A stretch of 64,000 bases of DNA from Galbibacter mesophilus (GTDB lineage: Bacteria > Bacteroidota > Bacteroidia > Flavobacteriales > Flavobacteriaceae), in NCBI RefSeq assembly GCF_023721415.1, contig NZ_JAMQVC010000002.1:682001-746000 (forward strand), given 5' to 3'. Positions 24,780 to 36,936 of this stretch are shown piece by piece. The position numbers were made by a program, and so were the translations under genes. The notes under the pieces were generated by a model, which was not told where the DNA came from, made no database searches, and saw only the letters and a program-made list of their open reading frames with translations. Position 1 is the stretch's first letter, and the number at the start of each line of letters is the position of its first letter.

Positions 24780-25310
24780 ATGAACTTGGTAAAATTTAGT
24801 AAAGATTTAGGAAACTTGAAGCCTAATAGAAAATTACTTTTAAGAAGAGGGTATAGTGATGAAATGATTGATAAATTATATATTCAAGAGTATCAAATAG
24901 AAGATAAAATTTTAAATTCAAAGGCCTTAAATCACTACAAATCTATAGAAGCACGAGATTTCATCGAACTATTTAATTTAGAAAGGTTTAGAATAAGGAA
25001 CATAAGTTTTCCGAAGAAATTGGAATATGTAGAGAAGTATCTAAAAGTAGGGGAATTTGATGGCGGTTATTTGGGGTTAGATGAAATAACCGGAATGATT
25101 TACATAATATATTCTGATAACTTAAATTGTGTAAATGAAATCTTTTCCACAAAAGACTCAGAATATTTTGACATTTTATTGATAATCGCAGAATATTCTA
25201 AGAATGTTTCCGAAGGTAAAATCAATGCCTTTGATGAGAATGCTAAAAACAAATTTATTGAAAAATGTTATTCAGTTTGTCCATCAGGATCATATGAGAT
25301 ATTCTTATGA
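24780..25310 (+). CDS. Uncharacterised protein, possibly SUKH-like
   Basis: This 176-residue protein has no signal peptide and is rich in Lys, Glu, Ile and Asn. The segment F-D-G-G-Y-L-G-L-D near 93-101 and the following short strands recall SMI1/KNR4 (SUKH) immunity proteins, but I cannot assign it with confidence. The coding sequence is more AT-rich than its neighbours. It is an isolated gene: no toxin is encoded next to it. If SUKH-like it could be an orphan immunity protein. Confidence 0.6.
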   Translation: MNLVKFSKDLGNLKPNRKLLLRRGYSDEMIDKLYIQEYQIEDKILNSKALNHYKSIEARDFIELFNLERFRIRNISFPKKLEYVEKYLKVGEFDGGYLGLDEITGMIYIIYSDNLNCVNEIFSTKDSEYFDILLIIAEYSKNVSEGKINAFDENAKNKFIEKCYSVCPSGSYEIFL

Positions 25311-25477
25311 TTTTCTTATTAAAAGTTTGAAATATATGGTATCCTCCAGCAAGTGATATCTTCCTATCTGCGCACAATCAAAATGAGTAAAACCAAAAAC
25401 ACACGAGACTTTTCAATAGTTCAAAATTAAAACTTATAAATACACTAGAAATCCCAAGCAGGAAGTTTCAATTCTTC

Positions 25478-26398
25478 CTAGGCATTTAAAAAATCATCAA
25501 TAGCCTTTCGCATTGGAATAGAAGGTTGGGCACCGATTTTTTGAACGGAAAGGGCAGAGGCTGCTGTTGCAAAACGAATGGCATCTTCAATACGCTTGTT
25601 CTCGGTAAGGGCAACGGCAAAACTTCCGCAGAAAACGTCTCCAGCGGCAGTGGTGTCTTCTGCAATTACTTTAAAAGCCGGAATAAAATGGGTTTCATCG
25701 TTTAAATTATAAACAACTCCCTGCGCTCCAAGCGTTACAATAACTATTTTTGGTCCAAGCAAAGCTAATTCTTGGCAAGCCTTTTTAGCCGAGTCTATTG
25801 TGTTAACCTTTTTTCCTGTAATAAAGCTCGCTTCCGATTCATTGACCACGAAAAATTTAACCTTTTGTAAAATTGATGTATCAAACGGTTGGGCCGGCGC
25901 CATGTTCCACAGTATGGGAATATCTTTTTCTTCAGCAATAGAAAGAATGTATTCAATAGTTTTTAAAGGGATTTCGAATTGTAGCAGTATAATATCTGCA
26001 GAAGAAATGGCAGATAAGGATTTGTCTATTAAATCTGGGGTAAGCATGTAATTGGCACCAGGCGCTACGGATAAATAATTTTTGCCATCATCGCCAATCA
26101 TCACTAGTGCGTGTCCGCTTGCGACGTTGTCACATTTATAAATAAAATTGGTGTTGATTCCATCTTCCTCAAAATTATTAATCATTTTAGGGTGATATGG
26201 GTCTATTTTTCCTACGCAATTTACAAAAGTAACCTTTCCCCCCGCACGGGCAGCAGCCACCGCTTGATTAGCACCTTTTCCTCCAAATACCTGTTGAAAA
26301 GTAGCATTTGTAATAGTTTCTCCTTCCGAAGGTAACGTATGCATCTTCATAATCATATCCACATTGGAACTTCCTATAACTACAATGTTTCCATCCAT
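25478..26398 (-). CDS. rbsK: Ribokinase (PfkB family)
   Basis: A 306-residue PfkB-family sugar kinase. The N-terminal G-S-S-N-V-D-M (about 7-13) and the G-G-K-G-A-N-Q-A-V-A-A-A motif (about 38-49) are those of ribokinase, and the C-terminal D-T-T-A-A-G-D-V-F anion-hole motif (about 249-257) holds the catalytic Asp. It phosphorylates ribose or a related pentose. It is the last gene of an operon with a permease and deoC, so the substrate may be deoxyribose as in deoxyribokinases. The permease gene is two bases upstream. Confidence 0.93.
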   Translation of the reverse strand: MDGNIVVIGSSNVDMIMKMHTLPSEGETITNATFQQVFGGKGANQAVAAARAGGKVTFVNCVGKIDPYHPKMINNFEEDGINTNFIYKCDNVASGHALVMIGDDGKNYLSVAPGANYMLTPDLIDKSLSAISSADIILLQFEIPLKTIEYILSIAEEKDIPILWNMAPAQPFDTSILQKVKFFVVNESEASFITGKKVNTIDSAKKACQELALLGPKIVIVTLGAQGVVYNLNDETHFIPAFKVIAEDTTAAGDVFCGSFAVALTENKRIEDAIRFATAASALSVQKIGAQPSIPMRKAIDDFLNA

Positions 26399-26400
26399 TT

Positions 26401-27405
26401 TTAAATAATTCTAGCTAAAATGATTAGTATTAGTCCGATTATAAAAAAACCGAACATTGCTGTTAGCCACGGAGCGGTTTTCTTCTTCGCCGTTGCAAAT
26501 TCTTTCCAAATAAATACACCCCACGCCGCAGAAATCATGGTGGCTCCTTGACCGAGACCGTAGGAAATAGCATAACCCGCTTTTTCGGAAGCAATTAAAC
26601 TAAATTCCATAGCGGTACACCAAATTAATCCACCTAAAATACCCATAATATGCGTTTTAAGGGAAGCGGTGGAGAAATATTGTTTATAGGAAACTGGTTC
26701 CCCCACAAGCGGCTTATACATAAACCAGCTATTAAATACAAAGTTGGAAATAAAGATACCCAATGTGAAAATGAACATGGCGGTGTACGGAGTTAACAAA
26801 CCTATTTCTGGGGCTTTGAAATCGCTAATCATAGCATCTGCCACAAAGCGGTAGAAAAACCCCATTAAAATTCCGGACAGAATTGAAATGATAATACCTT
26901 TTTTCTTGTTGCCATGAGAGGTTTTGGGAAGTTTTGTATAGGCCTTTGCATTGAATAAAATAGCGAGCACTACAAGAAGCAATCCTAAAAATAAGAGATA
27001 AGGGTTTCCTAGGGGATCAGCCATGTAATTAACAACGACGCCAATAACCAAAGCTAAACCAACGGCTATTGGAAATGCCACGGCCATACCCGCTATGGCG
27101 GTAGCAGCCACGATTAATAGGTTGGATAAGTTAAAAATGACACCTCCCAGAAATGCCGCCAAAAGGGCTTCGGGGTTTGCAAGGGTTAAATCGGTAATAA
27201 AGTCCCTGCCATTCTCCCCGTTACTTCCCAAAGTAATGCCGAACAAAAGCGAAGTTATTACCAAACCAATGGAATAATCCCAATAATAAAGGGAAAAAGA
27301 CCAATTTTTCGGTGTAAGTTTAAGTGTGTTTATCCAAGAACCCCAGCCAATCATTGTGATAATACAAAATAAAACGGCCGCGGAGTAAGAGTCTACAATA
27401 TACAT
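26401..27405 (-). CDS. GRP-family sugar transporter
   Basis: A 334-residue membrane protein with about ten transmembrane helices in two halves, without a signal peptide. The first helix W-G-S-W-I-N and the conserved A-V-A-F-P-I-A-V-G and Y-G-L-G-Q-G-A segments match the glucose/ribose porter (GRP, RhaT-like) family of the DMT superfamily. It probably imports the sugar phosphorylated by the ribokinase encoded two bases downstream. Database names for such proteins often read multidrug DMT transporter, which is less fitting here. Confidence 0.85.
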   Translation of the reverse strand: MYIVDSYSAAVLFCIITMIGWGSWINTLKLTPKNWSFSLYYWDYSIGLVITSLLFGITLGSNGENGRDFITDLTLANPEALLAAFLGGVIFNLSNLLIVAATAIAGMAVAFPIAVGLALVIGVVVNYMADPLGNPYLLFLGLLLVVLAILFNAKAYTKLPKTSHGNKKKGIIISILSGILMGFFYRFVADAMISDFKAPEIGLLTPYTAMFIFTLGIFISNFVFNSWFMYKPLVGEPVSYKQYFSTASLKTHIMGILGGLIWCTAMEFSLIASEKAGYAISYGLGQGATMISAAWGVFIWKEFATAKKKTAPWLTAMFGFFIIGLILIILARII

Positions 27406-27432
27406 GGCAAGTATTTACGTTTTTGATAAGAA

Positions 27433-28140
27433 TTAGTTCTTATATTTCTTTTCTGCTTCTTTCATAATGGTTTCCGTAGCTGTGGCTCCCACACGGTTGG
27501 CACCTGCTTCTTTGGCCTTTAACAATTGTTCCAAAGTACGTATACCGCCAGAAGCTTTAACTTTTACATTAGGACCGATGGCATTTTTCATCAACTGCAA
27601 ATGGGGAATGGTGGCACCGATATAATTATAATTCCCATCGCTATTTTTGCTGAAACCAAATCCGGTAGAGGTTTTAACATAATCTACCTTAGCCTCGGTA
27701 CAAATTTCACAGAGTTTTTTCAATGTTTTTTCTTCGGAAATATAATCGGTTTCGAAGATAACCTTAATAGTAGCGTTGTTTTTATGGCAAGCCTCGGTTA
27801 TTGATGATATTTCCTTTTCTACATATGCCCAATCTCCTTCCAGTGCTTTGGCAATATTGATCACCATATCCACTTCTTCAGCTCCGTCCTTACATACATT
27901 TTCCGTTTCAAAAACTTTGGTTTCAATACTAGAGTTACCAGCGGGAAAACCAATAACACAACAAATTTTAACATCGGTATGTGCCAAGAGTTTTTTGGCA
28001 TCTGCTACCATGTAGGACTTCACGCAAATGGAAGCAACGTTATATTTTTCTGCTACTTTACAACCTTCCTTTAAGTCGGTAAAGGTGTGGGTAGGGTGGA
28101 GGATAGAATGATCTATCATTTTTGCAATTTCCTGTATCAT
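27433..28140 (-). CDS. deoC: Deoxyribose-phosphate aldolase
   Basis: The ATG at 28140 (M-I-Q-E-I-A-K-M-I-D-H-S) gives 235 residues; the longer frame would overlap the upstream gene. Catalytic residues are Lys156 (V-K-T-S-T-G-F, Schiff base), Lys195 (V-K-A-S-G-G-I) and Asp91 (V-D-M-V-I-N). It cleaves 2-deoxyribose-5-phosphate to acetaldehyde and glyceraldehyde-3-phosphate. It lies between the GH9-like and permease genes, 17 and 27 bases away. Confidence 0.95.
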   Translation of the reverse strand: MIQEIAKMIDHSILHPTHTFTDLKEGCKVAEKYNVASICVKSYMVADAKKLLAHTDVKICCVIGFPAGNSSIETKVFETENVCKDGAEEVDMVINIAKALEGDWAYVEKEISSITEACHKNNATIKVIFETDYISEEKTLKKLCEICTEAKVDYVKTSTGFGFSKNSDGNYNYIGATIPHLQLMKNAIGPNVKVKASGGIRTLEQLLKAKEAGANRVGATATETIMKEAEKKYKN

Positions 28141-28157
28141 TTGTATATTTTTTAAGA

Positions 28158-29999
28158 TTATAATTTTGAAAGTTCCATAAGTCCGGTTAGAAATGCTGCG
28201 GAATGAGGAATCCAATCTTCATCAGTAAATGAAAACGGACCGTCGTTCTCTTTTTTAGGCGAAACATCCATTTTAAATTGTTCACCGGTTGAAAAGCCAT
28301 TGCAAACAACGCCTCGCGTGTTAAACCACGTCCCTGCGGTTTTATTTCCAACCGCATTCATCATACTACGCGGAACGGCTTGGTCTTTTAAAATGTCTTC
28401 AGAATAAATTACGCTTCCTTTAAGGCTGTCTGCGGTAACACCCGCATTTAAACCAGCAATCCATTGTAAATTACCGATTGCAATTTCCTTCAGTTTTGAA
28501 TCTTTAAAAAGTGCACTTAACTTAGAAGCGATGGCTGCAGTATATCCATAAATGGCATTGGTACCGTGAAAAAAGCCAGCAAACCAAATAGGACCTTCAT
28601 TCCCGAAAATTCCGTTGGGAACAAGAAGAAACGGGTTTTCCGAACACGTTGGAATTAAAACTCCGTATGCATATTTTTTTAAACATTCTTTCCATTCGGG
28701 CGCTTTTCCATGGTCGGGCCAAAGCGATAGCATTTCAAAAAAAGGAATTAAATAATTGGGAAATAATCCGCCAGCATCAGCGCCATATTCTTTGTGTTTT
28801 ATAGCGTGCACCCATAAATTCTCACTATGTGGAAGGCTGGAAAACTCTTTGAAATGCCCGTAATATCCATGCTCTGTCTGACTTTCGGTAAACTGCCTTT
28901 GCATAATTTCGTCAGCATAACCAATAGCCAATTCCTTGGCGTCTGTATTGCCTAGTTTGAAGCTTTCCAAACAACACCAGCATAAAAATATAAGATCCCT
29001 CGTGAGCCATTCATCTTTAGGAATTTCTGTATTTTCTGGCAATCCTCTTTGAAATTTGGAGTATCCATAGTCGCCTAATGGTTTGGCCTCGTTTAGGAGC
29101 CAATCCAAGGAAAGGTCTGCTGCATTTCTATAAGTTTTTATTTTTTCAGAATAGTCGTTCGGTAGGCAGTCGGCTGCTTTATAAAGCGCAACCACCGCTT
29201 TTGAAACATCATTGGGGAGAACAAAATCTTCATGACCGAGAAGATCGTGACTCATAGCTCCTTTTTTATACCCCAATTCAGTTGCTTTTTCCTGTGTCAT
29301 TACCAAATAATCAGCGCCAACAATAATTTGCTCATAAACACGGTTTAAATAATCCTTGTCAATGGCTTCATGTTGATGTTTGCCAATATCTGCTAAGCAC
29401 ATAATCATGGCGCTTTGTGCGGGACTTTCAGCCCAAAGGGCCCCAGCATCCTGCCAGCCGGCGCCAACGCCTGTAAAATGCTTTCGGCGTTCAAGCATAT
29501 CTACAGATGCCCAAACATGGGAGGCATTCCAAAGTATATCTTTTTTAACGGCAAAACCTTCTTGTTGGAAGTAAACCTCCTCTTCATTTTGCACAATAAT
29601 TTTCCATACACCTTCTTCAGAAATATCCTTAAAAGTAGCTATCCACCAATGACTTTTCCAAGTTTCGCCCCAATAGATAAAGTTACTTTGGTATTCTTTT
29701 TCTGAATTTTCTGGAATAAGTTTACAAACCGCAGGTTGTTTTATCAATTCCTTTTCGGGCATACGAAGGATAATTCTGGCCGGCTCATTTAAAGGATAAC
29801 CAATTTGAGAAAATAGAAGTCCGGAAACTTTGGTATTCTTGGTTTGAAGTGATTCGGGAATTTTATAATGATAATTTTTCCAGGGCCTTTCTGATTTGTC
29901 TTCGGTGGTACAAGCAAAAACGCTTTGCGTTAAAATACCACCACCGAAAAACGCTGAATTTTTTAAAAACTTCCTTCTGGTCGGTTCTTTATCTTTCAT
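28158..29999 (-). CDS. GH9-like protein with Tat signal and altered catalytic motif
   Basis: The 613-residue protein starts with a twin-arginine signal (T-R-R-K-F-L, then a hydrophobic stretch and Cys30). An N-terminal Ig-like CelD-type domain (Q-I-G-Y-P-L-N-E-P-A at about 65-74) is followed by an (alpha/alpha)6 barrel of the GH9 type. In GH9 the G-W-x-D-A-G-D motif carries the catalytic base; here it reads G-W-Q-D-A-G-A (Asp184, Ala187), so the usual base is missing. A candidate acid Glu lies in F-T-D-E-D-W near the C-terminus. It is the first gene of the operon leading to deoC and ribokinase. It may be a divergent hydrolase or a binding protein. Confidence 0.8.
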   Translation of the reverse strand: MKDKEPTRRKFLKNSAFFGGGILTQSVFACTTEDKSERPWKNYHYKIPESLQTKNTKVSGLLFSQIGYPLNEPARIILRMPEKELIKQPAVCKLIPENSEKEYQSNFIYWGETWKSHWWIATFKDISEEGVWKIIVQNEEEVYFQQEGFAVKKDILWNASHVWASVDMLERRKHFTGVGAGWQDAGALWAESPAQSAMIMCLADIGKHQHEAIDKDYLNRVYEQIIVGADYLVMTQEKATELGYKKGAMSHDLLGHEDFVLPNDVSKAVVALYKAADCLPNDYSEKIKTYRNAADLSLDWLLNEAKPLGDYGYSKFQRGLPENTEIPKDEWLTRDLIFLCWCCLESFKLGNTDAKELAIGYADEIMQRQFTESQTEHGYYGHFKEFSSLPHSENLWVHAIKHKEYGADAGGLFPNYLIPFFEMLSLWPDHGKAPEWKECLKKYAYGVLIPTCSENPFLLVPNGIFGNEGPIWFAGFFHGTNAIYGYTAAIASKLSALFKDSKLKEIAIGNLQWIAGLNAGVTADSLKGSVIYSEDILKDQAVPRSMMNAVGNKTAGTWFNTRGVVCNGFSTGEQFKMDVSPKKENDGPFSFTDEDWIPHSAAFLTGLMELSKL

Positions 30000-30028
30000 A
30001 ATGGTTGGAAGGTTAATTTAGTGTTTTC

Positions 30029-30078
30029 CAAATGTAATCAATAAAACTTGTACGTACAAGTTTTATTGACTACATTAG
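30029..30078. promoter_or_regulatory. Palindromic operator overlapping divergent promoters
   Basis: A 46-base near-perfect palindrome (arms 30031-30053 and 30054-30076, one mismatched pair) centred on ACTTGTACGTACAAGT. On the minus strand, TTG, 20 bases, then TACATTTG (30029-30036) forms a promoter for the GH9-like operon. On the plus strand CTTG (30047-30050), 20 bases, then TACATTAG (30071-30078) forms a weaker one for the GH36 gene. The core has the length and symmetry of GntR/HutC-type operators, so the GntR protein encoded at 34731 is a candidate binder. Confidence 0.75.
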
Positions 30079-30115
30079 TTATATTATTTATTGAAAAACC
30101 TAACTTAATTAACCA

Positions 30116-32269
30116 ATGAACTTTAAATTTATTTACTTTTCCATACTCATCTGCAGTAGTTTATCTTTTTCTCAAAATAACAAGAATCAAAAAAATAGCA
30201 TATTTGAAATAGCCAATGCATCTGTAAGCAGAAGTTTCAACAACCGCCAAAACAATTGGCAAACAGCCTTTATTCATTTAAAGGATAGTAAAGATACTTT
30301 GGTAGGAAAGAGCAAGGACTTTTCTTTTTTATGGAATGGTAAAAGATATTCAGGTTTATCTGATTGGACGTTAGTCAAAACCACCAATTTTAAGGATGAA
30401 GATGGCGGCAAGGGATTAAGCGTTACTTTAAAGGAAAAAGTTGTAAACCCTTCTGTAGAAATAACCATTTTTTATGTGGTTTATTCTGATATTCCTGTAA
30501 TCAGAAAATGGATTCAGTTTAAAAATTTAGCGTCTAAAGAAAGTAATTTAGAAGATCTTACTGTGGAAGATCTTTCTACAAACCTTAATAAAATTGATTC
30601 CTGGGTATACCATAATTATGCCCGTATGAAACATTTGATGAAATATGAAGGTGACTGGGACGATCCTTTGGTGGTGGTGCATGATCATAGCAAAAGAGCT
30701 GGGATAGCTTTGGGTAACGAAGCGGTTGGGGTTTTAAAGCGAACGGCCTTTCATACCACAGAGAATAATGTGGAAATAGGACTTACAAAACCTTCTTCTA
30801 CATATCCTTTCCGAAAATGGCTGGCACCCAACGAAACTTGGGAAAGTTATAAAACCTTTATTTGTTTATACTCCAATAGAAATGATGGCTTCGATGTAGT
30901 AAATAATGAAGTAAATACCTTTACTACCCAATATATGAAGCCGCAAGTATTAAAACTGAATGAGAAACCCACTTTTGTGTACAATACTTGGTATCCCTTC
31001 CGAACGCACATTAACGATTCATTGATTCGGTCGGTTGCAAAGTCGGCAGCAGCGTGTGGAATTGAAGAATTTGTCATAGACGATGGTTGGCAAGTAAATG
31101 CACACGGGAAGTCTTCCATAAGAGGCTGGGGTGAAAATTATGGGGATTGGCACGTAGATAAAACTAAATTTCCCAATGGATTAAAACCAGTTTTTGATTA
31201 TATTAAATCGCTTGGAATGAAGCCCGGTTTATGGATTTCTATTGCATCCGCTACCAAAGATTCCAAGGTGTATAAAGAACATCCAGAATGGTTTGTAAAA
31301 GATGAGGAAGGGAAGATAGGAAACCTGCATTTTAATAGTGAACAGGATCAAGGCTTTTATACCGCTTCGTTTGGTACTGAATGGAAAGACTATATAAAAG
31401 ACGTTATTGTTAGATTGGTAAAAGATTACGGTTTAGCGTATGCTAAGCTGGATTTAGCGGTTGTAAGCAGTCCCTATGTTAATAACGATTCTATCGCGGG
31501 TTCATATGCCAAAGGCCACCTTTATAAAGATCATTCGGAATCTTTTCTGGTTTTATACGACCGATTATTACAATTCTTTGACGAACTACATGAAGAGGTA
31601 CCTGAGTTATTTATTGATTGTACTTTTGAAACAGCGGGAAAGCTACACATGATGGATTACGCCTTTGCGAAACACGCTGAAGGGAATTGGCTGTCTAATT
31701 TTGAAGAAGCTTCGCCTGTAGGCCCTCTTCGGGTAAGGCAAATGGCTTGGTGGAGAAGTCCGGTAATGCCGGCAGCTTCCTTGGTTATTGGGAATTTACC
31801 TATGGATGATCCGAATTTTATGTTTGGATTTAAATCGCTGGTGGGTACGTTGCCCATTGTATTGGGGGATCCGCGAAAACTTTCCGAAGAAAAGAAAAAT
31901 CTTATTCATTCTTGGGCAACTTGGTTAAAAGATAAGCAAAAAAAGTACGATTATATGGCGTATCGTAAAGATCTGCCAGGATTTGGTGAACCTCAAGAGG
32001 GAATGTGGGATGGGTGGCAACGTATTAACTTTGAAACCAAAAAAGGCGGATTGGTAGGTGTATTTAAGCAAGGAGCAAAGGAACCAGAGCGGACCGTTTT
32101 TATTAATGATTTATTTTCTGATAAAATATACGATTTACGCAAAGCACCCAATGGAGAATTAGTATGCCAGAAAACTGGAAAAGACTTGATGGAAAACGGC
32201 TTTCCTGTGATTATTACGGAATCGTACGGCGGTGAAATATTTGAAATTGAATTATTGGATAGTAAATAA
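30116..32269 (+). CDS. GH36 family alpha-galactosidase-like protein
   Basis: A 717-residue secreted protein with an N-terminal signal (about 1-19, S-L-S-F-S-Q). After a beta-rich N-terminal domain, the (beta/alpha)8 barrel shows N-T-W-Y-P-F-R, F-V-I-D-D-G-W-Q at about 320-327 and the predicted nucleophile Asp446 in Y-A-K-L-D-L, where GH36 enzymes usually have K-W-D. The acid/base Asp is less clear (the F-I-D-C-T-F region near 502 is a candidate). It probably removes alpha-galactosyl groups from glycans in the periplasm. It diverges from the GH9-like operon at a shared operator. Confidence 0.85.
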   Translation: MNFKFIYFSILICSSLSFSQNNKNQKNSIFEIANASVSRSFNNRQNNWQTAFIHLKDSKDTLVGKSKDFSFLWNGKRYSGLSDWTLVKTTNFKDEDGGKGLSVTLKEKVVNPSVEITIFYVVYSDIPVIRKWIQFKNLASKESNLEDLTVEDLSTNLNKIDSWVYHNYARMKHLMKYEGDWDDPLVVVHDHSKRAGIALGNEAVGVLKRTAFHTTENNVEIGLTKPSSTYPFRKWLAPNETWESYKTFICLYSNRNDGFDVVNNEVNTFTTQYMKPQVLKLNEKPTFVYNTWYPFRTHINDSLIRSVAKSAAACGIEEFVIDDGWQVNAHGKSSIRGWGENYGDWHVDKTKFPNGLKPVFDYIKSLGMKPGLWISIASATKDSKVYKEHPEWFVKDEEGKIGNLHFNSEQDQGFYTASFGTEWKDYIKDVIVRLVKDYGLAYAKLDLAVVSSPYVNNDSIAGSYAKGHLYKDHSESFLVLYDRLLQFFDELHEEVPELFIDCTFETAGKLHMMDYAFAKHAEGNWLSNFEEASPVGPLRVRQMAWWRSPVMPAASLVIGNLPMDDPNFMFGFKSLVGTLPIVLGDPRKLSEEKKNLIHSWATWLKDKQKKYDYMAYRKDLPGFGEPQEGMWDGWQRINFETKKGGLVGVFKQGAKEPERTVFINDLFSDKIYDLRKAPNGELVCQKTGKDLMENGFPVIITESYGGEIFEIELLDSK

Positions 32270-32290
32270 TATTGTTCCTCTAAAAATCAC

Positions 32291-32335
32291 AAAGTCGCTG
32301 AAAGGATATTTCTTTCAGCGACTTTACATTTTTTA
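32291..32335. terminator. Bidirectional terminator between GH36 and GH97 genes
   Basis: Fourteen-base perfect stem (AAAGTCGCTGAAAG and its complement) with a 7-base loop, then A-C-A and a T run for the plus strand; converging genes end on both sides. Confidence 0.88.
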
Positions 32336-32343
32336 AGCTATTT

Positions 32344-34269
32344 TTAGTTGGTTTTAGCAACAAAACCACCGAAAGGCAACACCTTAATGGTGAGGGTTTT
32401 AGTTGATTCTGTATATTTGAATTCCCTTGCTTCTTCGCCATCCATGATTAATTCAAAGTCAGTATTCCCATTAATAAAAGAGGTGTCAATTGTCCATTCT
32501 TTTTCGGAATCTTCTCCATTAATCCCAGCGATATACCATGCATTTTCTTTTCGTCTCGCTAAAACAACATCTTTTCCTGGTGAACCTTGTAAATATTTCA
32601 CTTCATCCCAAGCTACAGGAACTTCCCGTAAAAAATTCTTAGCAAATTCGGGGATGGACTCATAACCTTTTTTAGAGCCTCCAAAATGTTGAATACCAGA
32701 TTCAAATAAAACTGATAAGGCTAATTCATGTGTGTAGGTGGTTATGTGTGGTAAAATGTTATCATAAAATAAAACAGGCGTATAGTCCATAGAACCAATA
32801 ACATTTCTGGTGAAAGGCAAGATGGTATTGTAGGCGGGTGCTCTTTCCGTAAAGGTTTTGTCAAAAGAGTAACACTCAGCTCCCTTTACACTTTCCATGG
32901 TTAAAAGATTAGGATACGTACGTGCCCAACCGCGCGGAATACTAGCCCCATGAAAGTTAACAAGTATTTCAAAATCGCTGGCATCTTTTAAAATTTCAGG
33001 ATAAAGGTCCAAGATGGTTTGTTTATCACTTTGAAAAAAATCGATTTTAACCCCTTTTATGCCCCAATCCTGTAATTTTTTAAATTCGGCTCTTCTCGTT
33101 TCCTTTATATGCATTCTATCGCGAGGTTCTTCAGTTACCACATTATGCGGCCCACCAGAGTTGTACCAAGCCAGCAACCCAATATTTTTGGAATTGGCAT
33201 AAGAAACCAATTCCTGAAGTGTTCCTCCATTCATTTTGTTCCAATTGGCATCTACCAAAGAATATTCCCAATTCATTTCCGCGGCAAGGTCAACATAATC
33301 CTTTAGCTTGTCAAAATCCTGCGGACTATCATGATCGGCTAGCCAGCTCCAAGAAGCACGTCCGGGAAGAATCCAGGAAGTATCTTCTAACTGACTTTCT
33401 TCACTAACATTCTTTACGAGATTAGAAGTTACGATATCATTTAAATCGTTGGAAATGGTCATGGTCATCCAACTCGTTTTCCACGGTAATGTGTGAGAGG
33501 GGTTAGATTCGTACAATCCTTCTGCCTCTGCTTTATTCGGAAAAAGAAAAGTATATTCCTTGTTTTGAGGATCAGCTTTAAAATGAATACCAGCATAACT
33601 GTTATCGAAACCAGCGTCACTTAGGAGCGCATAGGTTTTTCCCAATTGAAACAAGGCAGGAAAACACCATCCTTCCCCAGTAGGTGATTTTTCATACAGC
33701 GATGGTACTTCCTCATGATATTTCTCGTATGCAGGACTCCATTTTGTAGGCTCCGCTTGGGGCATAAGCCATGCTTTTCCTTCTTTTGCAAACTTAATTG
33801 TGCTTGCGTCCTCTTTAATTGTAACTTCTTTGTTTTCATTTTCAGGAAAAACATAGCGATAAGCATAGCCATCATCATAAACTTGAAACTCTACAACGAA
33901 AGGAATTCCATTTTCATTGAATACGGTTATTTCTTTTTGAATACCATTTTGGTTTACACGAGATTGTTTTCCTGATTTTAAGGTATAACCTTGTGTAAAC
34001 GCACTGTCATTGGAAACTTCTTGTATGCTTAGATTTTTAGAAAAATCGGAATCGTTTCGCACAATGCCCACACGCGATGCCTTTAGAATAGTATCTTTCT
34101 CTAAAATAACATCATAAAATAATTTCCCTTCCTGTAAGTATAATTGAATTTCTATATTTTTCTTAGGGGAAGAAATGCTTACGTTTTGAATTTTTTCTTT
34201 GGAGCATCCTATTGCAATACAGATAATAAAAAGACTGAAAACGGTTTTTGTTAAAAATGATTGCTTCAT
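32344..34269 (-). CDS. GH97 glycoside hydrolase lipoprotein, retaining alpha-galactosidase type
   Basis: The 641-residue protein has a lipoprotein signal (Cys22 in I-A-I-G-C). A beta-sandwich N-terminal domain (about 25-290) precedes a TIM barrel and a short C-terminal beta domain, as in GH97. The candidate nucleophile Asp410 lies in G-V-K-I-D-F-F and the candidate acid/base Glu459 in T-M-E-S. An Asp nucleophile is typical of the retaining alpha-galactosidase branch, unlike SusB-type inverting glucosidases, which use Glu. With GH36 it suggests degradation of alpha-galactosides. It is the partner of the GntR gene across a gap of about 460 bases. Confidence 0.9.
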   Translation of the reverse strand: MKQSFLTKTVFSLFIICIAIGCSKEKIQNVSISSPKKNIEIQLYLQEGKLFYDVILEKDTILKASRVGIVRNDSDFSKNLSIQEVSNDSAFTQGYTLKSGKQSRVNQNGIQKEITVFNENGIPFVVEFQVYDDGYAYRYVFPENENKEVTIKEDASTIKFAKEGKAWLMPQAEPTKWSPAYEKYHEEVPSLYEKSPTGEGWCFPALFQLGKTYALLSDAGFDNSYAGIHFKADPQNKEYTFLFPNKAEAEGLYESNPSHTLPWKTSWMTMTISNDLNDIVTSNLVKNVSEESQLEDTSWILPGRASWSWLADHDSPQDFDKLKDYVDLAAEMNWEYSLVDANWNKMNGGTLQELVSYANSKNIGLLAWYNSGGPHNVVTEEPRDRMHIKETRRAEFKKLQDWGIKGVKIDFFQSDKQTILDLYPEILKDASDFEILVNFHGASIPRGWARTYPNLLTMESVKGAECYSFDKTFTERAPAYNTILPFTRNVIGSMDYTPVLFYDNILPHITTYTHELALSVLFESGIQHFGGSKKGYESIPEFAKNFLREVPVAWDEVKYLQGSPGKDVVLARRKENAWYIAGINGEDSEKEWTIDTSFINGNTDFELIMDGEEAREFKYTESTKTLTIKVLPFGGFVAKTN

Positions 34270-34730
34270 TTAAGTAAAAATTGATTGGTTAGTTAGGTGA
34301 GGTGTATGTCATGTTTTATTATGAACCTGTAACCTCACATAAGCTCCGTTGTGTCCTAACTGTAAATGGAAGGTTGATATCGGAGCAGTGGTTATAAAAG
34401 TAAGAAATACCTTAATTCGTTTATTACCAGTTAATAATTTTTTTGTAAAGTTGAAAGAATAGTGTAATATTTTGATAATAATTGATACAAAGGCTAACTA
34501 TTCAAATTATCGTTTAAAATAGATTTACAACATTTTTTTCATGAAATACAATTAACTAGAACGAAAAAATAAGCAGTTTTTTTAAGTCAAGCATAAATCA
34601 TTTAATTTTTTTTGCTTCGGTCAATAGTCGTAGTGAGGTATTCTTAGAGAATCGTTAGAAAGAGGATTGTATGAAGACTTTAAATTGGTTGTATATTTGT
34701 TTTCAGTATTGTAGAAATAGAAAACACCAA
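34270..34730. other. Gene-free interval between GH97 and GntR genes
   Basis: About 460 AT-rich bases upstream of two diverging genes. The only clear signal is the candidate GntR promoter at 34666-34699. I do not see a copy of the 30,050 palindrome core or an RNA gene here. Confidence 0.5.
34666..34699 (+). promoter_or_regulatory. Candidate promoter of the GntR gene
   Basis: ATTG (34666-34669), 22 bases, then TATATTTG (34692-34699). Because this -7 box lies after the ATG at 34671, transcription would start near 34705 and only the ATG at 34731 could be used. Confidence 0.6.
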
Positions 34731-35453
34731 ATGGGAGCTCAAAAACAATCCATTCCTAAATATCAAGTAGTCTGTAATCATTTTAAAAAGCGAATTCAAA
34801 AAGGATATTTTCTTCCTGGGGACTATTTGCCATCGGAACATGCTATTTGTGCGCAATTTAATGTCACGAGAACTACTACTCGAAGAGCGTTGGATGCACT
34901 TTTGAATGAAGGATTTATTACAAAAGAAAGAGGTAAGGGGAGTAGAGTAGTGGAACGGAAAAACGCTTTGGGACTTCTAACCGTGAAAGGTTTTTCTGAA
35001 GTTTCAGGAGAAAAGGCGGAAACGCTGGTTGTAGAGGATACCGCACTAGATAGTTGGAATGATATACCATATTTTGCTCCTTCTTCCAAGGAAAAAGATT
35101 CAGAATGTGTTTCCTTTAGTCGATTAAGAAATATGGAAGGAAATGCGGTTATGGTAGATAAAACTTGGTATTCTTTAGACTATCTGCCATTAATTTCAGC
35201 AAAAGACTTTGTAGCGGATTCCTTCTTTAAAACTCTTAGTAAACAGTATTTGATTGAAATTCTGGGCTCAGATCAAGAGTTAAGGTCAGAACCAGCGACG
35301 GCTTCTTTGGCGGAACAGTTAAATATAAAAACCGGTGACCCAATACTGCACATCTCCATTAGGTTTACCACCACTAAATCAGGTTTTTACATTTACAGTG
35401 AGGTATATTGTAACACCAAAAAATACCCGATAAGTAACAGCTATTTTATCTAA
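34731..35453 (+). CDS. GntR family transcriptional regulator with UTRA domain
   Basis: The ATG at 34731 (M-G-A-Q-K-Q-S) gives 240 residues, the usual length; the ATG at 34671 lies before the candidate promoter. The N-terminal winged helix has P-G-D-Y-L-P-S-E-H near 32 and the recognition region N-V-T-R-T-T-T-R-R-A-L-D-A-L (about 44-57). The C-terminal UTRA domain (about 85-240) senses a small ligand, often a sugar phosphate. It likely controls the GH36/GH97 and deoC-type operons through the palindrome at 30031-30076. This is inferred from position. Confidence 0.88.
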   Translation: MGAQKQSIPKYQVVCNHFKKRIQKGYFLPGDYLPSEHAICAQFNVTRTTTRRALDALLNEGFITKERGKGSRVVERKNALGLLTVKGFSEVSGEKAETLVVEDTALDSWNDIPYFAPSSKEKDSECVSFSRLRNMEGNAVMVDKTWYSLDYLPLISAKDFVADSFFKTLSKQYLIEILGSDQELRSEPATASLAEQLNIKTGDPILHISIRFTTTKSGFYIYSEVYCNTKKYPISNSYFI

Positions 35454-35469
35454 AAGAAATAGCGAATCT

Positions 35470-36936
35470 TTATTCCTGCTTCTCCTTCGCCTTAAGTTCT
35501 TTCTTTGGCTTATAATCGAAAAGACCTTTTTCTTTAATCAATTCAGCAATCCCTTTTGGAAGCATTTTTTCCCATCCATCTTCGCCTTCAGCAATCATTT
35601 TTAATACTTCTCTAGAGAAAATGTCCAAAATCTGATCATCATAGTCAAAAATATCAACCACTTTACCGTTGTATTTGAAGAACTTATAAAGCTCTTTCAT
35701 ACGCGGATGAACCTTTAAGTTGTTGCTGGTTGTAGTTAAGCCAGTTTCCTGATCGATCATAGGGTAGAGGTACACTTTTAAATCCTTGTAGAATAGTTTT
35801 CCGAAGGCTTCCAAGATTCCTCCACTTAAATGGCGATAATATTTTTCATCAAAAATATCCACTAAATTGTTAACACCCATGGTAAGCGCCATACGCTCTT
35901 TAGAATATTCAGAGAAGTATTCAACGAGTTTATAATATTCCTGGAAATTGGAAATCATTACCGTTTGGCCGAGTGAACAAAGCAGTTTTGCACGGTCCAT
36001 GAAGTCTTCTTCGTCAATTTCCCCTTCTGCACGAAGGTTGGAAAGGGTAATTTCAAAAACAACCACTGTATTATCAACATCTACTTTGTTTTCCCGAATA
36101 AATATGTCGTACGATTTTTTGTACATGTCCATATTCACCATGGTTACCGGTCTAAAACTACCTCTAAGAGCCAAGATGTTCTTTTTGTAAAGAATCGCTG
36201 CCGGAAGGATGTTATTGCCATCTGGACCAAACATTACGGCGTCTGTCATTCCGTTCTTAACAAGCTGTAAGCTCATTAATCGGTTGTCAACCTCTTCAAA
36301 ACGTGGACCAGAGAAATTAATGGTATCAATTTCAATAGTATCGTTATCGATATGGTCGTATAAGTATTTTAAAAGTTTTTTCGGTTTGTGGTGCTTGTAA
36401 AATGCTCCATAAATAAGATTTACCCCAACAATCCCCAACGTTTCTTGTTGCAAGCGGGCTTCCGTTTGTTTAAAACGAATATGCAGAATAATCTCGTTGT
36501 AATCTTCATTTGGATCCAGTTGAAAACGAATTCCCAGCCAACCGTGACCTTTAAACTTCTTAGCAAAATCAATCGTAGCTACGGTATTTGCGTAAGAAAA
36601 GAAAATTTTATTCGGATTTTCATCACGAGGGATGCGCTCTTCCATTAAACGCATTTCGTGTGATAACATTTTTTTTAATCGGGCTTCCGTTACATATCGT
36701 CCATCGTCTTCCACTCCGTAAATGGCGTCGCTAAAACTTTTGTCGTAAGCACTCATGGCTTTTGCGATGGTCCCTGAAGCTCCACCAGACCTAAAAAAGT
36801 GTCTAACGGTTTCTTGACCTGCGCCTATTTCTGCAAATGTTCCATAGATATCTTCATTCAAATTTATTCGTAACGCTTTGGATTTAAGCGAAGGAACATT
36901 CTCAAAGTTCTTATCCCCTTTTAAAACTAATGTCAT
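35470..36936 (-). CDS. Conserved Bacteroidota protein of unknown function
   Basis: A 488-residue cytosolic protein without signal or membrane segments, ending in a Lys/Glu-rich tail (K-P-K-K-E-L-K-A-K-E). Internal blocks such as A-E-I-G-A-G-Q-E-T-V-R-H-F-F-R-S-G-G-A-S-G-T (about 36-58) look strongly constrained, so it is a real conserved gene. I recognise it as a recurring family in Flavobacteriia but know no proven function; I see no catalytic signature. A TAACTTTG box at 36956-36963 on the minus strand is a likely -7 element 20 bases upstream. Confidence 0.85.
   Translation of the reverse strand: MTLVLKGDKNFENVPSLKSKALRINLNEDIYGTFAEIGAGQETVRHFFRSGGASGTIAKAMSAYDKSFSDAIYGVEDDGRYVTEARLKKMLSHEMRLMEERIPRDENPNKIFFSYANTVATIDFAKKFKGHGWLGIRFQLDPNEDYNEIILHIRFKQTEARLQQETLGIVGVNLIYGAFYKHHKPKKLLKYLYDHIDNDTIEIDTINFSGPRFEEVDNRLMSLQLVKNGMTDAVMFGPDGNNILPAAILYKKNILALRGSFRPVTMVNMDMYKKSYDIFIRENKVDVDNTVVVFEITLSNLRAEGEIDEEDFMDRAKLLCSLGQTVMISNFQEYYKLVEYFSEYSKERMALTMGVNNLVDIFDEKYYRHLSGGILEAFGKLFYKDLKVYLYPMIDQETGLTTTSNNLKVHPRMKELYKFFKYNGKVVDIFDYDDQILDIFSREVLKMIAEGEDGWEKMLPKGIAELIKEKGLFDYKPKKELKAKEKQE

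Follow-up and report, generated by a model that had tools for sequence, protein, structure and literature searches.

The intergenic region between two divergently transcribed carbohydrate genes in the Galbibacter mesophilus window (the whole stretch of 64,000 nucleotides analyzed here) contains a 46-bp near-perfect palindrome, which very probably works as a switch, with a single GntR-type repressor blocking two promoters at once. Its central core, ACTTGTACGTACAAGT, is predicted to be bound as an operator by the GntR/UTRA protein (HutC subfamily) whose gene lies at 34731-35453 (Table 1). Two mirror-image housekeeping (sigma-A) promoters are predicted to run outward from this core, with the CTTG of each operator half also serving as the -33 box for the promoter reading across the center. 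Binding of the dimer would shut off the GH36 gene along with the GH9-like/deoC/transporter/kinase operon, and binding of a pathway sugar or sugar-phosphate to the UTRA domain would release the repressor. We consider it highly likely that the core is the operator of this protein and that the bound dimer represses both promoters. The two overlapping promoters would presumably also exclude each other's polymerase.

This layout is of a known, ordinary kind, and its cross-species backing is unusually good. It provides a candidate operator, regulator, and regulon for a GntR/UTRA group in Bacteroidetes, a phylum nearly missing from the reviewed set of GntR motifs, where it is represented by 1 HutC regulator (PMC4494728).

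Table 1. Features of the palindrome and the surrounding genes (window coordinates)
Feature	Position	Strand	Basis
Ribokinase-family sugar kinase	25478-26398	-	TIGR02152, 335 bits (cutoff 300)
RhaT/ureide-permease-like sugar or nucleoside transporter	26401-27405	-	Pfam/NCBIfam searches
deoC, deoxyribose-phosphate aldolase	27433-28140	-	TIGR00126, 209 bits (cutoff 117)
GH9-like protein, 613 aa, first gene of left operon	28158-29999	-	Profile and Foldseek
-7 box TACATTTG, GH9-like/deoC operon promoter, 6/6 of TAnnTTTG	30029-30036	-	Sequence; phasing over sites
46-bp palindrome, one mismatched pair	30031-30076		Inverted-repeat search and simulation
Operator core ACTTGTACGTACAAGT, predicted GntR/UTRA site	30046-30061		Kept at homologous loci; co-occurs with GntR
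-33 box CTTG, GH36 promoter, within operator	30047-30050	+	Sequence; N20 phasing over sites
-33 box CTTG, GH9-like/deoC operon promoter	30057-30060	-	Sequence; phasing over sites
-7 box TACATTAG, GH36 promoter, 5/6 of TAnnTTTG	30071-30078	+	Sequence; phasing over sites
GH36-like (Melibiase) glycosidase	30116-32269	+	PF02065
GH97 glycosidase, linked	32344-34269	-	PF10566 and others
GntR/UTRA (HutC subfamily) regulator, predicted operator binder	34731-35453	+	PF00392 and PF07702; co-occurrence

Palindrome and predicted overlapping promoters

An inverted-repeat search confirms the palindrome of the original prediction, with its single mismatched pair and two arms, 30031-30053 and 30054-30076, of 23 nt each that are 96% complementary and have no spacer. 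It is the longest near-perfect palindrome in the window (at most 1 mismatch), and its length is far beyond chance: in 200 order-1 Markov simulations of the window, the arm length has a mean of 11.1 and a maximum of 16. The center of the site lies at 30053.5 and that of the intergenic region at 30057.5. The window contains no second match to the core with up to 3 mismatches, and the inner 14-mer of the core has no further exact match in the 3.77-Mb genome; because of this uniqueness, a repeat element was rejected. A viral origin of the motif was also rejected, as the viral contigs searched for it gave 0 matches.

Both strands carry the -33 and -7 boxes that had been predicted for them, in the arrangements CTTG-N20-TACATTAG (plus) and CTTG-N20-TACATTTG (minus), which are mirror images overlapping on ACTTGTACGTACAAGT. 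The core spans both -33 boxes, as had been claimed, and the plus -7 box does have the one mismatch ascribed to it. As in sigma-A promoters of Bacteroidetes, the -7 boxes fit the TAnnTTTG consensus, derived from mapped starts in Flavobacterium psychrophilum (PMC9723704) and also given in PMC2483708, and have a TTG 20 nt upstream. The differences are that both -33 boxes read CTTG, matching 3 of the 4 bases of the TTTG consensus (PMC2483708), that they are embedded in the operator, and that two such promoters overlap in mirror image.

With the -7 box placed at -12 to -5, transcription is predicted to start near 30083 (plus) and 30024 (minus). The start codons of the divergent pair are at 30116 and 29999, respectively, so that the predicted 5' leaders are ~25 to 33 nt long and the operator center is ~30 bp upstream of both predicted starts. 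From this position, a bound dimer would be expected to block RNA polymerase at both promoters.

The same phasing is found at homologous sites. Scoring of 16 such sites in both directions (32 arms), over spacings of 12 to 29 and with a threshold of at least 5/6 of TAnnTTTG, places a box exactly N20 from the operator CTTG in 18 arms, with 0 to 2 at each other spacing. If N19 to N21 are allowed, 21 of the 32 arms have a box, compared to a mean of 1.9 and a maximum of 8 with shuffled flanks. A good box at N20 is present on both arms in 5 of the 16 sites. This phasing indicates that the operator is placed so that its TTG serves as the -33 box.

Candidate regulator and distribution of its predicted sites

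The protein encoded at 34731-35453 combines an N-terminal GntR winged-helix domain (PF00392, 54.4 bits; cutoff, 27) with a C-terminal UTRA sensor domain (PF07702, 54 bits; cutoff, 23.8) and, judged by this domain content, fits the HutC/UTRA subfamily of GntR, which includes TreR, NagR/YvoA, and DasR. It falls below the cutoff of every curated NCBIfam equivalog; its identity as the trehalose operon repressor TreR was rejected (TIGR02404, 100.3 bits versus a cutoff of 211.95). Motifs of the HutC subfamily are GT-N4-AC palindromes, and in a divergon both operons are usually served by one site close to its midpoint (PMC4494728). The core here contains TTGT-ACGT-ACAA, with GT and AC four bases apart, and a central site serving both operons is likewise what is predicted.

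The DNA-binding domain aligns with that of the AraR structure 4egy (E = 2.9e-7), and the residues corresponding to AraR E30, R41, and R45 are kept. In AraR, the GntR DNA-binding domain is followed by a LacI-type sensor domain. The sensor of the window protein is UTRA, and the genes differ as well from those of Bacillus subtilis AraR; AraR identity was rejected because of the sensor, and the regulator is therefore AraR-like only in its reading of DNA. The inner TTGTACGTACAA of the operator also agrees with the B. subtilis AraR box consensus, At(T/A)tGTaCGTAcaa(A/T)T (PMC4218819).

The original prediction named this protein as the candidate regulator, a choice supported by the HutC-type spacing (PMC4494728), the AraR residues, sites that adjoin GntR genes, and the distribution of the site. 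A search of 299 sampled Flavobacteriaceae genomes for the exact 16-mer ACTTGTACGTACAAGT finds it in 8, versus 0 for the reversed control. A search of the same 299 genomes with the GntR protein recovers a close relative (E < 1e-70) in 11 and a weak one in two. Every one of the 8 genomes with the site belongs to these 11 (hypergeometric p = 1.1e-13, with no correction for common ancestry or linkage), a p-value that is too generous, since the regulator, site, and targets are linked and maybe inherited as a block, so that the genomes are not independent. All 8 have a site no more than 10 kb from the GntR gene. Two exact 16-mer carriers, G129 and G189, also have a one-mismatch copy ~100 bp upstream of GntR.

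Three GntR-bearing genomes have no exact 16-mer, and two of these contain near copies (loci L050 and L051). In G247, ACTTGTATGTACAAGT, which has a single mismatch, stands ~100 bp upstream of GntR; in G018, a copy with 2 mismatches stands ~215 bp upstream of it. Each genome has a further 1-mismatch copy in its cluster. The third, G212, has no recognizable site in the 15 kb examined. It contains a long AT-rich inverted repeat (L052, about 1700-1760; arms of ~27 bp) ~200 bp upstream of GntR, the center of which resembles a degraded operator. Within the genus, the 12-mer TTGTACGTACAA is restricted to the two genomes that encode a close relative of GntR (one with 2 copies, the other with 3) and has 0 copies in the five others.

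The GH9-like gene is rare, being present in 4 of the 299 genomes, the window's own included. Conservation of the palindrome along with the gene pair, the test set for the original prediction, is seen in G256, a genome of the same genus, which keeps the divergent pair, the core, and a perfect intergenic palindrome of 48 bp (L019:8771-8818). Its 28-bp middle, AATAAAACTTGTACGTACAAGTTTTATT, is identical to that of the window, and the outer arms and the flanks beyond are changed. A metagenome-assembled locus of a third flavobacterium (L017) has the identical core upstream of the gene for a GntR relative with 49% identity, the first gene in an operon of the order GntR-GH9like-deoC-transporter-kinase, with a divergent gene across the site that appears GH1-like by eye. 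GH9-like relatives are also present in L018 and L020 to L022, and in the stretches examined there neither GntR was detected nor the site found; parts of the gene set are kept in L018 and Persicobacter.

In other genera (L032, L033, L034, L036, and L037), the operator is found at a conserved cluster of genes for a Gfo/Idh-like oxidoreductase, a GMC oxidoreductase, a ROK-type kinase, and an SIS-like protein (named by eye, except for the GMC protein, which is assigned by Pfam). The same operator at a different cluster suggests that this GntR group has moved between catabolic clusters. G217 has a second GntR relative that is more distant (37% identity), and its gene lies directly before a deoC-like gene (L053:7613-9112), again pairing a GntR-type regulator with a DeoC-type aldolase.

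Alternative readings of the palindrome

Given its long near-perfect arms, the palindrome could fold into a hairpin or cruciform and might then be a terminator, an attenuator, or another RNA or DNA hairpin element. However, the genes diverge, so that transcripts of an upstream gene never enter it, and the predicted starts lie outside it, so that neither promoter transcribes it. The stem is AT-rich and has no loop, and distant relatives conserve only the core. A terminator scan found nothing at the palindrome, and Rfam gave 0 matches at 25000-36000; on these negatives and the gene orientation, a terminator or structured RNA was rejected, and a hairpin role of whatever kind appears extremely improbable. 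It is unlikely, too, that the core serves one gene only and that the mirror promoter arises simply from the symmetry of the palindrome. Several homologous sites do have a good -7 box on a single arm, but in the window and in G256 each of the two arms has a box at N20 that matches 5/6 or 6/6, and in both genomes the two flanking genes start within ~40 bp of the palindrome.

HutC-subfamily proteins can act by means other than simple repression. The GntR protein might thus be an activator, or a different regulator might bind the operator, for instance an AraC-type protein encoded near the locus in relatives; we regard these options as quite improbable. G256 has an AraC-type gene nearby that is itself preceded by a second copy of the site, and L017 has a similar gene (by eye), but none was found by eye in the window's own cluster. 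Moreover, the genomes with the exact site coincide with GntR-bearing ones, and a GT-N4-AC site with perfect two-fold symmetry is well suited to a GntR dimer. As for activation, the center of the site, near -30, falls on the promoter, as is typical of repression.

Predicted target genes, possible wider regulon, and outer arms

The GH9-like protein has a Tat-type signal and a lipobox-like sequence (by eye). It has no Pfam match at E ≤ 0.001 and no NCBIfam match. A profile built from its relatives detects 3h7l, an endoglucanase-related structure (E = 3e-7), and the best Foldseek matches of its model, predicted with the Persicobacter row left out and of only moderate confidence (mean pLDDT 60), are GH9-related structures (3h7l, E = 1.4e-13; 5dgq). 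The model thus supports a GH9 fold; the label "GH9-like" given to the protein in the original prediction holds for fold and profile but not for the Pfam GH9 profile, which is not matched. A search of the window for the core reveals no operator of its own for the GH97 gene and no site upstream of the GntR gene, so autoregulation is not obvious.

A second palindromic site, AGTTGTACGTACAACT, is located 342 bp to the left of the window (G000:C2:681658-681671; L060:3659). It shares the core GTTGTACGTACAAC, has the putative promoter GTTG-N20-TAATTTTA, and precedes an operon of two sulfatases and then an MGH1-like glycosidase, which runs into the window (-158 to 4595). Most of the 2-mismatch copies in the genome lie within open reading frames or have no -7 box; G000:C2:681658 is the only one that is intergenic with a box at N20. 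G256 keeps this site (L066:5783) and the sulfatase operon, which is weak evidence of conservation because the two sequences are close. Of seven genomes, the window genome and G256 are the only ones with a close copy of the first sulfatase (90% identity). The GH9-like/deoC/kinase/transporter operon, the GH36 gene, and, provisionally, the sulfatase operon would thus be tied into one sugar pathway.

Between the window and G256, arm positions 15, 16, 20, and 21 from the center have changed identically on both arms, which is the one unusual trait of the locus. Two of these positions fall within the spacer, and the other two are the unconstrained NN of the -7 box; selection on the promoter consensus does not explain the matched changes. 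An extended palindrome occurs in G129 as well, at another gene cluster, and most other sites lose symmetry soon past the core. Conceivably, though this is doubtful, the outer arms evolve in concert by template-switch homogenization seeded by the operator, a case drawn from one species pair. Such homogenization of arms is a known process (PMC8604942; PMC7202029). If it operates here, the promoter would be copied from one arm to the opposite one, which could turn a one-sided operator into a matched bidirectional promoter in one mutational step.

The gene surroundings vary in related clusters. On the Persicobacter plasmid pPP4 (L022:11220-21346), sulfatase, deoC, rbsK, GH9-like, GH36, and GH97 genes follow in this order in one direction, and GntR was not detected. 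In G256, another exact operator copy precedes the AraC-type regulator gene (L019:4164), and GntR may control this second regulator there. The same genome has an apiosidase-like gene between GH36 and GntR (L019:11068-12453), absent from the window's cluster, which may hint at the substrate.
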